Part shown: one piece after another, positions 30,900-36,800 of the stretch
How positions within the stretch are numbered: position 1 is the first letter of the stretch
Layout: each line of letters opens with the position of its first letter
NCBI GenBank assembly: GCA_004194705.1
Contig: SADC01000581.1
Coordinates: 124,001-188,000, forward strand
Length of the DNA: 64,000 bases
Origin: Ditylenchus dipsaci
Lineage: Eukaryota > Nematoda > Chromadorea > Rhabditida > Anguinidae
Reading direction: 5' to 3'
Translations under genes and position numbers: made by a program
The notes under the pieces: generated by a model
Database searches by the model: none
The model's input: only the letters and a program-made list of their open reading frames with translations
Told to the model about the DNA's origin: nothing

Positions 30900-33800
30900 A
30901 TGAACCCCACGAAAGTATTTCTAAAACCCATCTCCCGGACAAGACTAGGCAAACGAAGAAGAAATACGCTATTAATCTCATTTCTGGCCTCGATGGCCAT
31001 GATCCTCTTCTTTGTATACATTTTAGTCATTTTGGGGGCTGGATTGGCAGCCTATTATTCAGCTGGAAATCAGATAATGGCCAGAGAATCATCCCACTTG
31101 GGGTTGTTCCAATCAGATGTGGGGGAAGACCCCTTTAAAGGCTTTCCATTGCTTGCAGGCGACAGCAAACAAGACACTTTCTACACATTTTCCAAAGCGA
31201 TGCTAAGCAAGAGGGTGGTTTGGGTCAGAAATACGGACAATGAACCCGAGACAACTAGTGAACAGCTCAACCAGTCTATGCTGGAACAGGATGACTGGGA
31301 TGCACGGGTGGTCGAATTATTGGGAGGGAACACTAGAAGAGAAGAACATAAAGGTGGAGCATATGGGTTGGATCGGGGATTCGGTTGGGCAAAAAGGGAC
31401 TTGGTCTTCAAGCTTTTTTTCTCAGTGAAATTCCAAATATTTTCTGAGCTTTCTTGTAAAAACCTCATTTTCATCTTTGAATGGCTTTTTAAAATGCCTC
31501 TTTTAGCTTTTCAAAAAAATTTTGCACGAAATTCAAAAATTTCTCAAATTTGACTATAAAAGCGAATTTCTATGCTTATGGTTTTGATAGATTTGTATTT
31601 TAAGAATTCTGTCGGGCTAGTTTGGTGAAAGACATACAAGAATACATTTCAGGGTATTTAACAAGAAAAAAACGAAGACTTTTGCTTTTCGTATAATCAA
31701 AAAATCTATGAACTTCTGTGAATAACCATGATATTTTGAAAGACCTTATACCTTTTAGGGTAGTACTTTTTTCTAGTACCAAAATACTTAATTCTAGTAC
31801 CAAAATTTTCATTTTTTTGAACTTTTCTCTTTTTCTCCTCACTTTTTAGGTACACTTTTGAATTTTTTTCCAACCATCGTGTAGCCCTGAATCTCAGCTA
31901 CTCAACGATATCTTTTTTCAGTAAAAAAATTTAAAAAGTTGGAGATTCAGGGTTCTAAATAGAGGAACTTGGTCGAAAAAGTTACTTCATACAAAGTTCA
32001 AAATCTTCATATCTTTGAAATCTTTTACAGGAAATCGAAGTCTGGTTAAAAAGCTGATATTCAGGGCTACACGTTCATATGCCAAGGAAAAAATCTCTAA
32101 CTTTACCAATAGTTTTTCTATGCATGTTAAATTTTGGTACTAGAAAAAAGTATTTTGGTACTAAATTTAAGTATTACCCTACTTTTTATATTCATTTTCG
32201 GTATACAACCGACTTGGTATAAAAAGTGACTCGGTACCTTTTTTTAAACTGGCACCTTCCCAGAATTCGGTTTTAAGCATGCTTTTTTATAAATTGTTTG
32301 AGCTTAGGGCACGGCCCCTCAAAAACTGCATTCTAGTGCATTAGCAAAATTTGGCGCCAAATCAAATTTTTGAAAAACAGTTGTTTTTGAGTTTATTTTA
32401 TCCAGCACTTCTGGTTTTACTTTTTTCGCTGTATCTCATGTAAGTTTATTGTCAAAAAACTCACCACATTCAGCGCTGTCAAATAAGCTATCACTTGCCC
32501 GATAAACTTAACGAATTTCAAAACTAGAAGAGATTTTCATGAATATTTCCGAAATTTCGGTTCGATTTGTTTGACTTGATTGATATTAGCGATGTTTTTT
32601 TTGACAATAAATTGCTGAAGCAAGACTTATACCTGATAGAGGAGTGAATTTGCTGCATTTTGGTACCAAGGACATATACAAAAAATACAAATTTTGGGTG
32701 TTTTATACAAAAGCTAGATGGGAAACGCAAAAACCCCTAATTTTACTCGGAAAAATGGCAGTTGTTTGCTCCAAGTGGTCTCTAGTTTCTAAAATAACAT
32801 CTTTACAAAATTTGGCTCAATTATTCTTTTAGCTGAATGCATGAGCTATCTTTTGGTATATGAGACGTCTCAAAAACGACGACTTTTTTCGATTTTTTGA
32901 CGGAACGAAATTTGGGATGATTTTCAGGTATTATGAGAACTCGCAATTCAAGCTATGAAAGAGCCAAGGAGCAATACAGGGATCAAGAGCCAATGAGTCC
33001 ACCGATCAGAAAGCAGCAAGTTTCAGCAAGAGAAGCACTAAGCTATGTGGTGCAGAAGAAAAAGCAAGCAAAAGCACAGGCTGCAAGCCGAGCTAGGGCT
33101 GCCACAAGGATCCGTCTTAGTAAGCTTTTTAACCTGGTTTTACCTTTCATTTTGAACATTCTTTCGTTTTAGTGAACCAAGCGAATAAAAAGCTCAGGAT
33201 AGCAGAAGAAGATAAGGCCTCACAGAATCAGCTACAACTGGAAAAAGAAAGCAAGGCGAGGGCAAAGGACCATTTATTCATTAGAGCAGGGATTTCTGAG
33301 GTACGTGATATCTTGAGTCTAATTCAAAGCAGTTATTGTTTTATTTTGTAGGCACACATTCTACACCCAGGATAATTATACGTTGACTTCATCTCAAGTT
33401 ACTGCGCTTCGTAGAGATCTGTTACGAGGATGCAGCTGTTGCCAATTGAACCTTCTAACTGCATTGCCGAGAATGCCGAGAATCTGCGTGAAGTGGCAAT
33501 CGAAAAGCTCGAATTTGATGTGAACACCGACCTAGAGCCCATGGTAAGACTCATCAAAGTTTTGATTTCCTCACCTCATTTGTTTATCAGATTCTCAAGT
33601 GCCAGCTCTTTGACTTGACTGGTGTTGCTCCGGAAAGTAAGTTTTCTTATTTAGTCTACCGTGGCTAGCAGTACAATTTCTTTTTTAGAACAGAAGATTA
33701 TAAACAAGGTATTTGATCCGACCCTTGATAGCATCTGTTTATTCAATGCCATACCGATATTCTGTTATTTAGGGAAATTTGCTGAAAGACGATGACTGGG

Positions 33801-36800
33801 GCAACGTCACGCTGGAGGAAGGTGATATCCTTCCTTCTACTCTAAAGCCAAAATTTGAAGTGTTTAGGGCTTGTCTGCATGATGTTGGGTGCTTCCTCAG
33901 TCTCTACTGAAGGACAATCGTGTGCTGAAATTGCTGATTGCAGATGCTGAAATTGCGAAATTCAAAATGTGGTCTAAAGAATACTTTGATACAATGACGG
34001 TACATCTCACATTATTCATCTAGTTAGCGTATAAAAACTGTCTCTTTAGACTTGCTTTCCTCAAATGCCAGTCACACCAAAGTGCCACATTCTTCGCCAA
34101 CACGTTAGTGAGTTCATGGATAAGCATTGTTTCGGGGTCTTCGGTCTGAGCAGTCAATAGAAGCCTTGCACTGCAAAGTTAATGGTGATGAAAGGAGGCT
34201 TTCCTGCATGTGTGAAAGAATGAAGACACTCAAGAAAATATTGGAAGACTCTTTTGTGAGAAACATTTTGTTTGATGTGAAAGTTTTTGATTTGTAATTC
34301 TCCAGGTTTGCAACAAATTTGTCTAAATTCAAGCAAAGTATCTGAAAGCTAAAAATTGTTTAGAAAAAGCAGAAAAAGTTTTTTTGAAATTCTTGGCGTT
34401 TTGTTTATTTTGAAATGCACTAGAATGCAGTTTTTGAGGGGCCGTGAGGGGCAGGGTAGGCCAGCGTACGTTAGTGCAAGCTCAAACGTGTTTCCCAAAA
34501 AAACCGGAAAACTGTAGTTGAAAATATAGAAAAATCAGAAACTAAAACTCATTAATGTAAATTCAAGCAGGATTGTTCTAACGCCGGCGTAACGCCGGCG
34601 TTTCATTCAGGGGTTCTAAAGGAGTTCTTCAAACGTCGGATAAACGCCGGCGTTTGAGAGGCGTTACGCCGTAATCCAAACAAACGCCGGCGTTTGTTAA
34701 ACGCCGTCGTTAAAGTTGTTGTTAAAATATATACAACACAGGTTATTTCAAAGTTTTTCTGACACTTTAAAACGGTCATAACTTTTTTTTCACAGGCCGA
34801 ATTTTTTATTTCTGTAAACGCAGATCGGCCCAGCTTTTGATGGCAATTTTTTGGTATATAAAGTCAAAAACACGATTTTTGCTTGGTAACCCCTGACTCA
34901 GGGGTTACCACGGGCCCTGAGGTTCGGGCTCTGGCCAATGGATGGTTTCTGGATGGATAAGGCCAAAACCACAGCGGGGACCAAGTGAAAATCGTGTTTT
35001 TGACTTTATATACCAATAAAAAAATGTTGATCAAAAGCTGAGGCGATCTGCGTTTATAGAAATAAAAAATTTTGCCTGTGAAAAAATTTATGACTTTTTA
35101 AAAGTGTCAGAAAATTTTTGGAACACCCTGTAAATTGCTCTGAAGTGTTTTTTGGTGATCTTTATTATTTGAACAGCATAATGAATAAGGTTTACATGTG
35201 AAGTTCTTATATCAAAGATGCGCAAAGCTTAAAAATTGCAAAAGCATCAACAAACAAAATTTCTGCTATTAAAATCTAAACGCCGGCGTAACGCCGGCAT
35301 TTAGAGTCTTTGGCGTTACGCCTCAATGAAAACAAACGCCGGCCGGCCGGCGTTAAAACACCAGCAAGGGTACTCGATATCGAATTTTTCCTTTTTCGTC
35401 AAAAAAAATTTCGATAAAATCTAAAACTCATAATTTTTTGCCTATCTAACAATTCTTTTTGATTGTAGGAGAAAAAAAGAAAAAGCCTACCATAAGAAAC
35501 AAGATGGAAGCTGTCAAACAACTACCTTTTGTCAAAATATCCTTGTCCAGATTGGTGAATGTGAACCAAGAGGAGAGCAGAGAAGCCCGAGATCAACCAG
35601 GCTTCAAACGAAGAAAACGAGAAATCACCAGAAATAAACCACAGTCAAATGTGAAGAAAGATAAGCAAACAAAGTCTAGATCAGCCAGTAGATGTTCTGC
35701 TAATAAGAGAGGTATTTAAAAGATTTTCAGAAATAAGTGAAATTGGTCAATATTTTCTTCATGCTTGTTTTGATCTTTTGATCCAAATTAAAAAAGCAAA
35801 AATTGAACTATGTAACAGTCAACTTTCGATACATGCGGACCAGGGATACGTCAAAATTTTGACATTTGAATTTATATTTTTGCAACCTTTTTCTCGTTAT
35901 TTTTACAATTTTTGAAAAAGGCCCTAAATAAAAGATTGCGAAAGAGAGAATCGACAAAGTTAAAAAAAAGAAATTTACATGTAAAAAAGTAGTATGGACA
36001 TCCTGTTTCGATTTACGATTTTTAAAATCCCAGAGTTTTGATAGTTTTGACGCATAAAGGTACGTTCACATAAAAGTGTCGACCCAAGCGTTCTTTTAAC
36101 GCGGGAAGAGCTGTACTTTTTTTCTTGACCAAAACTTTTTTTCTGTTGGTATCATTTTGTAGCTAAGATTCAGGGCTTCAAAATGAGGTATTGACAAGCC
36201 ACATCTGAAATGAAAAATTGGGGTAAAAATACTTAGGTCCGCACTCAGGTCGACACTCAGGCCCACACTCTGTGAGTGTCGACCCGAGTGTCGACCTGAG
36301 TGCGGACCTAAGCATTTTTACCCCAATTTTTTATTTCAGATGTGGCTTGTCAATACCTCATTTTGAAGCCCTGAATCTTAGCTACAAAATGATACCAACA
36401 GAAAAAAAGTTTTGGTCAAGAAAAAAAAGTACAGCTCTTCCCGCGTTAAAAACACCCCAAATCTCACACTCAGGTCGACACTCATTGTGAACGGCTGTAT
36501 ATACACTCGTATTTTCGAATTTGGAAAACGGTTTATCTCGAAAAGATTTCTATTGGCGAAAAAATAATTCGAAAATGGTAGAATTGGCGAAACAGTATTT
36601 CGAAAATGGTAGAATTCGCGAAAAGGTAATTCGAAAATAGTGAAATTGGCAAAAAAACATTTCGAAAACGGTAGAATTCGTGAAAATTCGTTCAGAATTA
36701 ATTTGTTTCTGCAAATATAATTCAAAATTTTTGCAGTTTTGGAAAAACTAATTTTCGTTGCTTGTACAACTTGCAGTGGATTTTTTTCTGGAAAATTTTG

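Follow-up and report, generated by a model that had tools for sequence, protein, structure and literature searches.

The window analysed here is a 64,000-nucleotide stretch of contig SADC01000581.1 of the nematode Ditylenchus dipsaci (positions 124,001–188,000), the contig being labelled C580 in the assembly that was searched (227 Mb, 1,359 contigs). Positions 32310–34446 of the window are occupied by an element of 2,137 bp whose 33-bp termini, of the form CAC...GTG, are exact inverted repeats, with a target-site duplication on either side. Within it lies a 472-bp insert (33469–33940) consisting of five exons and four introns of the ubiquitin-like (Ubl) domain of USP14. Cargo-free parent elements with the same termini are found elsewhere in the assembly, the USP14 cargo occurs in seven places, and sister elements carry other cargo. 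We consider it highly probable that the element is a non-autonomous Chapaev-type transposon carrying a genomic piece of USP14, introns included, that it was moved by the transposase of its 3.2-kb relatives, and that the piece was captured by template switching from a donor since lost or foreign and became a passenger afterwards. The features of the element are listed below, compared where indicated with the cargo-free parent C836, whose coordinates are those of locus L030.

32306–32309, no strand: left copy of the target-site duplication AGGG, a 4-bp match with the right copy
32310–32342, plus strand: left terminal inverted repeat of 33 nt, CACGGCCCC..., 100% complementary to 34414–34446
32310–33257, plus strand: 5′ body of the putative Chapaev-type element, common to the cargo-free relatives, 94.4% identical to C836 (L030 1976–2922)
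32933–33119, plus strand: predicted transposon exon, MRTRNSS..., with the same exon in C836
33173–33300, plus strand: transposon exon interrupted between 33257 and 33262, where an internal stretch of the parent has been deleted (C836 L030 2923–4152 missing)
33262–33468, plus strand: transposase exon region derived from the parent, lying 5′ of the cargo, 93.9% identical to L030 4153–4366
33469–33940, plus strand: captured USP14 segment (cargo), in place of 330 bp of the parent (L030 4367–4696)
33430–33543, plus strand: exon 1 of the open 103-residue frame, beginning at a transposon ATG (33430), with the USP14 ATG (33473) in another frame
33591–33636, plus strand: Ubl exon 2 of the spliced open frame
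33689–33708, plus strand: Ubl exon 3, followed by an intron at the position of the Ubl intron of the resident gene (between K and G)
33773–33821, plus strand: Ubl exon 4 of the spliced open frame (LKDDDWGN)
33868–33950, plus strand: Ubl exon 5, with the stop codon at 33948–33950
33941–34446, plus strand: 3′ body, comprising the last part of the transposase gene and the right end, 95.9% identical to L030 4697–5203, with HILRQH and ALH in different frames
34414–34446, minus strand: right terminal inverted repeat, ending GGGGCCGTG, complementary to the left repeat
34447–34450, no strand: right copy of the target-site duplication AGGG, a 4-bp match with the left copy

The original prediction, made from the letters of the window, described five small exons of the USP14 Ubl domain with GT-AG introns, and these are indeed present. 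The four introns (33544–33590, 33637–33688, 33709–33772 and 33822–33867; 46–64 bp) are all bounded by GT and AG, and splicing of the exons yields an open frame of 103 residues that runs from 33430, the first ATG downstream of a splice acceptor at 33351, to the stop. This frame matches the structure of the mouse USP14 Ubl domain (1wgg) with an E value of 6.6e-18, although only from residue 26 of 1wgg onward; a second USP14 entry follows at 1.1e-16, with a ubiquitin-repeat chain (6.7e-10) as the next structure. Because the first exon of the window copy is one base short, the frame that opens at the ATG at 33473 is broken and the first Ubl strand encoded from there (MPRICVKWQSK) lies in another frame. 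As a result, the whole domain is not readable in this copy, its score against the Pfam ubiquitin family (20.1 bits) is below the cut-off of 25.4, and a reading of the 103-residue frame as a complete Ubl domain was rejected. A further copy of the cargo, C867a, retains the whole domain in frame from USP14's own ATG, with an E value of 3.6e-22 to 1wgg and 31.2 bits to Pfam ubiquitin. Ubiquitin-repeat chains reach 3.7e-22 with C867a as summed scores in which no stretch passes alone, and the best other single-domain match is at 1.9e-4. A composite cargo assembled from several copies gave an E value of 3.2e-21. These comparisons identify the cargo as the Ubl domain of USP14, which it matches better than it does other ubiquitin-like proteins.

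Compared with USP14 itself (1wgg, 5gjq), the cargo shares the Ubl domain, about half of which is identical (36 of 69 residues with mouse), but the element has no catalytic domain. The expected absence of this (UCH) domain was confirmed, both within the element and on the contig of the window, on which none of the 34 UCH matches of the assembly falls. The segment had been predicted to start at 33430; the open frame does start there, but at a transposon-derived ATG, and the captured segment proper is 33469–33940. A fusion of the Ubl domain to a transposon protein had also been suggested. The spliced upstream frame that begins at 32933 is closed by a stop after 112 residues; no transposon–Ubl fusion can therefore be read in the window copy.

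Cargo-free relatives with the same termini identify the source of the element. C836 (3,228 bp) and C942 (3,199 bp) have their own sequence across the site of the cargo, and their frames together resemble a transposase. A profile search of the genome detected DUF1280 in C836 and C942 (78 and 82 bits), among 96 DUF1280 matches in the whole assembly, and the joined exons of C836 match DUF1280 (PF06918) with an E value of 3.3e-21 (76.4 bits, cut-off 25). According to PMC3985635, DUF1280 is the putative Chapaev transposase. Hallmarks of Chapaev elements are CAC/GTG ends and target duplications of 3–4 bp, their characteristic motifs are C(2)C, LH and H(4)H, and the target duplication of Chapaev3 is TWA (PMC4079192). 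The motifs CPIC, ALH and HILRQH are present in C836, as judged by eye, and the AGGG duplication of the window fits the 3–4-bp Chapaev type, not the TWA of Chapaev3. The termini, the target duplication, DUF1280 and the motifs argue for a Chapaev-type (CMC) assignment of the family. Compared to C836, the window copy lacks L030 2923–4152, the stretch that holds the DUF1280 exon (L030 3627–3986), and 33469–33940 stands where the parent has L030 4367–4696. Only the last part of the transposase remains, frameshifted, and the window element is non-autonomous, having no complete transposase. The transposon-type frames noticed on both sides of the cargo are transposon-derived. A comparison of the transposase with viral contigs returned 11 stretches, none of which was confirmed. 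The first coding exon is very different among four loci of the family (MRTRNSS... in L030, MVQTRRA... in L031, MVTTRRM... in L032 and MVSTRRM... in L033), as if 5′ exons had been swapped between lineages.

The inverted termini agree with the original prediction, all 33 nt of 32310–32342 being complementary to 34414–34446, and AGGG flanks the element. Both termini are present in 19 family elements, of which 11 are flanked by an exact 4-bp duplication, one by a 3-bp and one by a 5-bp match and six by none; we estimate that about 0.07 exact 4-bp duplications (19/256) would be expected by chance. Four loci (L027, L028, L029 and L042) were outside this set, as one or both ends were not recognisable in the fetched stretch, and L065, which is the same element as L038, was counted once. 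Within the 64 kb of the window, the sole further match to the terminus, with up to 9 errors allowed, is at 47651–47683 (7 errors). Two pieces related to the Chapaev 5′ body (10152–10311 and 46438–46662; 84–85%) are also present in the window in addition to this weak terminus match.

The USP14 cargo was located in seven places on four contigs: the window copy and two more on C580, two on C867, and one each on C9 and C500. Family sequence adjoins the cargo in all seven and the 3′ junction is identical in all seven; directly before this junction is a 12-nt repeat of parent sequence (TGCTGAAATTGC), which would suit template switching. The C9 copy retains ~215 bp more of the parent, together with ~25 bp of donor sequence upstream of the ATG and a TTTTTAG acceptor, and is therefore the least deleted form of the same capture. 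The two other copies on C580 (C580a and C580b) match each other at 99.1% over 6.4 kb, and both have 2.94 kb in common with the window, of which 800 bp lie past the right end. The shared block (window 32310–35247 compared with L043 and L044) starts exactly at the left terminus, ends 0.8 kb past the right one and is in inverted orientation on the same contig. Since the right flank of the window is shared, these two copies are block duplications and not independent insertions. The original description of the architecture as that of a Pack-TYPE element holds, as USP14 gene sequence lies between the termini of a DNA transposon, in a unit that has a target duplication and occurs at several loci.

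The cargo copies differ from one another by Kimura two-parameter (K2P) distances of 0.00–0.11, and the distance between the window copy and the cargo-free C836 is 0.041 for the 3′ body and 0.077 for the 5′ body. L042 was unused in these comparisons and copies with fewer than 400 aligned bases were dropped (C867a, C867b, C53, C378, C1105 and C1352 from the 3′ body; C9, C867a and C1285 from the 5′ body). Over 10 pairs of five copies, exons differ at 141 of 2,534 sites (5.6%) and introns at 91 of 2,043 (4.5%), such that exon and intron divergence are alike and there is no sign of selection after capture in these pairs. In five of the seven copies, neither start gives an open Ubl frame. The cargo after capture would thus appear to be a decaying passenger of no obvious benefit.

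It had been proposed that other copies of the termini might carry different cargo, and this proved to be the case. The first 1,152 bp of C53 are 97.8% identical to C836 and are followed by the 3′ part of a gene for proteasome subunit beta-4/PSMB2 with its stop codon. This cargo (L038:821–1698) matches the Pfam Proteasome family with 27.7 bits (cut-off 22.4) in a translation with the right frame at the start of exon 2, and with exon 2 in a shifted frame it matches yeast beta-4 with an E value of 1.2e-9 and a beta type-2 (PSMB2) chain with 3.7e-9. It was scored in 40 places out of 141 candidates, at least 24 of which have coding exons and 16 only the 3′ non-coding part, and both termini flank it in all four loci fetched (C53, C1001, C1086 and C1188; L065–L068). 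The two intron positions also occur in the resident PSMB2 gene at C586, as judged by eye, but this gene and the cargo have only 51 of 94 residues in common, and synonymous sites between them are saturated. Decayed copies at C173:7650–9300 and C463:63190–63700 (L070–L073) have exons upstream of the start of the cargo and are 77–80% identical to it in nucleotide sequence, introns included. The upstream exons at C173 match PSMB2 residues 48–93 (E value 5.1e-9), and apart from the cargo the 1,651 bp of C173 do not match any of the elements compared. C173 and C463 are likely relics of the PSMB2 donor lineage, which makes a diverged paralogue within the genome the likely source. A third, exon-like cargo is present in C378 (L039:1013–1921), with exon-spaced relatives at C1309, C1023 and C1198; this cargo matched no Pfam family and no solved structure. 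C1105 and C1352 share one insert, for which no identity was found.

In the mechanism that we propose, copies with an internal deletion and a cargo would be moved by the parent's transposase through recognition of their termini, and capture would have come about by template switching within the element. The donor would have been a diverged, functional copy of USP14, later lost or residing in another species, and the fragment would have been a decaying passenger after capture. Several observations weigh against this account. An exact 4-bp duplication is found in only one of the four USP14 carriers with both termini, namely the window copy, and the fetched stretches lack the right end in C867a and C867b and the left end in C9. 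The two duplicated C580 copies differ from the window more in the body (0.020–0.023) than in the cargo (0.002), and the body of C500 is 0.13 and 0.17 away from C836, so that elements recombine or age unevenly and ages derived from the body are approximate. Single-base indels, including that in the first Ubl exon of the window, may partly be assembly errors. Moreover, we infer the donor because no USP14 donor gene or relic was found in the assembly at the DNA or protein level.

The donor was implied by the original prediction to be the resident USP14 gene, and a complete gene with Ubl and catalytic exons was found at C321:214730–223782; its spliced protein, with two residues smoothed, matches USP14 structures with an E value of 6.5e-105. 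It belongs to the same gene family as the cargo and shares with it a VNTDLEP stretch and the position and phase of the third cargo intron (between K and G, phase 0). However, C321 lacks the other three introns, and the C867a cargo agrees with it at 45 of 71 residues and 64% of bases, with a proportion of synonymous differences (pS) of 0.82, which is saturated, and a nonsynonymous divergence (dN) of 0.29, compared to at most 11% divergence among the cargo copies. Since exons changed as much as introns after capture, the divergence from C321, which preserved the protein, predates capture and arose in a functional gene; neutral decay after capture cannot yield it. C321 was rejected as the donor on these grounds, and we regard its having supplied the cargo as very improbable. 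A second, rearranged and partial USP14 copy at C78:233000–239000 (L064) has exons on both strands and no detectable Ubl domain. It is possible, although we consider it rather unlikely, that the fragment was captured in another species and arrived by horizontal transfer of the element. The donor is absent from the assembly although C321 and the partial C78 copy are present, the cargo is barely closer to C321 (42 of 69 residues of the Ubl core, using the composite cargo) than to mouse (36 of 69; C321 and mouse share 39 of 69), and Chapaev elements have been reported to move horizontally among animals (PMC4079192). Horizontal transfer had seemed strong as an explanation for both cargoes, but is weakened by the decayed PSMB2 paralogues at C173 and C463, where a lost paralogue suffices, and Chapaev relatives are numerous in this genome. 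A protein database search for eukaryotic USP14 relatives gave 39 candidates, none at an E value of 0.001 or better. By analogy with PSMB2, a lost paralogue would be the first choice for the USP14 donor, and a diverged functional copy, since lost or foreign, is the source that the divergence pattern suggests.

The frame might alternatively encode a working product of the transposon, a small proteasome-docking protein under selection. The 103-residue frame is open from the first ATG past the 3′ splice site and in C867a the Ubl frame is intact throughout from the ATG of USP14 itself; yet an open Ubl frame is missing from five of the seven copies, exons and introns change at the same pace, and the two open frames use different starts, that of the window lacking the native first strand. 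This explanation appears improbable to us. A separate message from the window frame, made by spliced leader (SL) trans-splicing, is possible. An exact 22-nt SL1 leader occurs 58 times in the assembly and not at all in a reversed control, with tandem copies ~1.17 kb apart on C409, as would be expected if the host is a nematode. We found nothing in favour of the idea that no capture took place and that a transposon merely landed in or next to an old USP14 pseudogene here, and it can be practically dismissed: in copies on four contigs a defined stretch of the parent has given way to the cargo, and the 3′ junction is the same. More speculatively, one nematode Chapaev lineage might repeatedly capture proteasome genes (the docking domain of USP14, PSMB2), the USP14 piece having come with the element from another species, and the open Ubl frames (whole in C867a, with a replaced first strand in the window) might give spliced mini-proteins that dock on the proteasome and either protect transposon proteins or disturb host USP14. 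It is striking that the two cargoes recognised both come from proteasome genes, but they are two cases found after the fact, and we give this scenario little credence. We retain the reading of a non-autonomous element that took up a piece of a diverged USP14 gene by template switching.

Gene capture by DNA transposons is textbook knowledge in plants and thinly documented in animals, mostly for hAT and TcMariner (PMC8277862). A survey of 100 animal genomes recorded 370 elements with gene sequence between their terminal inverted repeats (Pack-TIRs), of which 208 hAT and 115 TcMariner cases together make 323 (Tan et al. 2021, PMC8277862), and its four multicopy cases and Ssk-FB4 were explained by template switching at the replication fork followed by transposition. 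CMC, Chapaev and the word "horizontal" are not mentioned in its main text. The present elements likewise have gene sequence between transposon ends, but are of the Chapaev type, with one cargo in seven places and the coding exons of another in at least 24. Turmoil-1 of C. elegans, also a nematode DNA transposon with incorporated coding sequence, took in two protein-coding sequences, the RRM of rsp-2 and a fragment of cpg-3 (PMC2572040). These lie within the inverted terminal repeats of one element, whereas here the inserts are internal, separate, in separate sub-lineages and have kept their introns. Tgm-Express of soybean (PMC1947982) is also a CMC-type element mobilising gene fragments, but from a plant and of the CACTA branch, not the Chapaev branch; CACTA and Chapaev both belong to CMC (PMC4079192). 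Plant Pack-MULEs and other Pack-TYPE elements (PMC8903248) are similarly non-autonomous elements with terminal inverted repeats that shuffle coding DNA, and differ in host kingdom and superfamily. Among the papers listed in a literature search that covered few subscription papers, none was seen to describe a Chapaev-type pack element or captured fragments of USP14 or PSMB2. It is likely that, in the manner of plant Pack-MULEs, a Chapaev-type family reshuffles pieces of genes in an animal. One small family provides the whole series, from the cargo-free parent through less and more deleted forms of a capture to relics of one donor lineage, with at least two independent intron-bearing cargoes spread to seven and at least 24 places; as a result, the mechanism of capture, the fate of the cargo and the source of the donor are directly testable in an animal. 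Such copies can also be miscalled as USP14 or PSMB2 genes during annotation.

Elsewhere in the window, a frame on the minus strand (26350–26928) encodes a helicase C-terminal region, with 30 bits to Pfam Herpes_Helicase and a match to UvrD_C_2 under the cut-off. We presume that it may belong to a Helitron.

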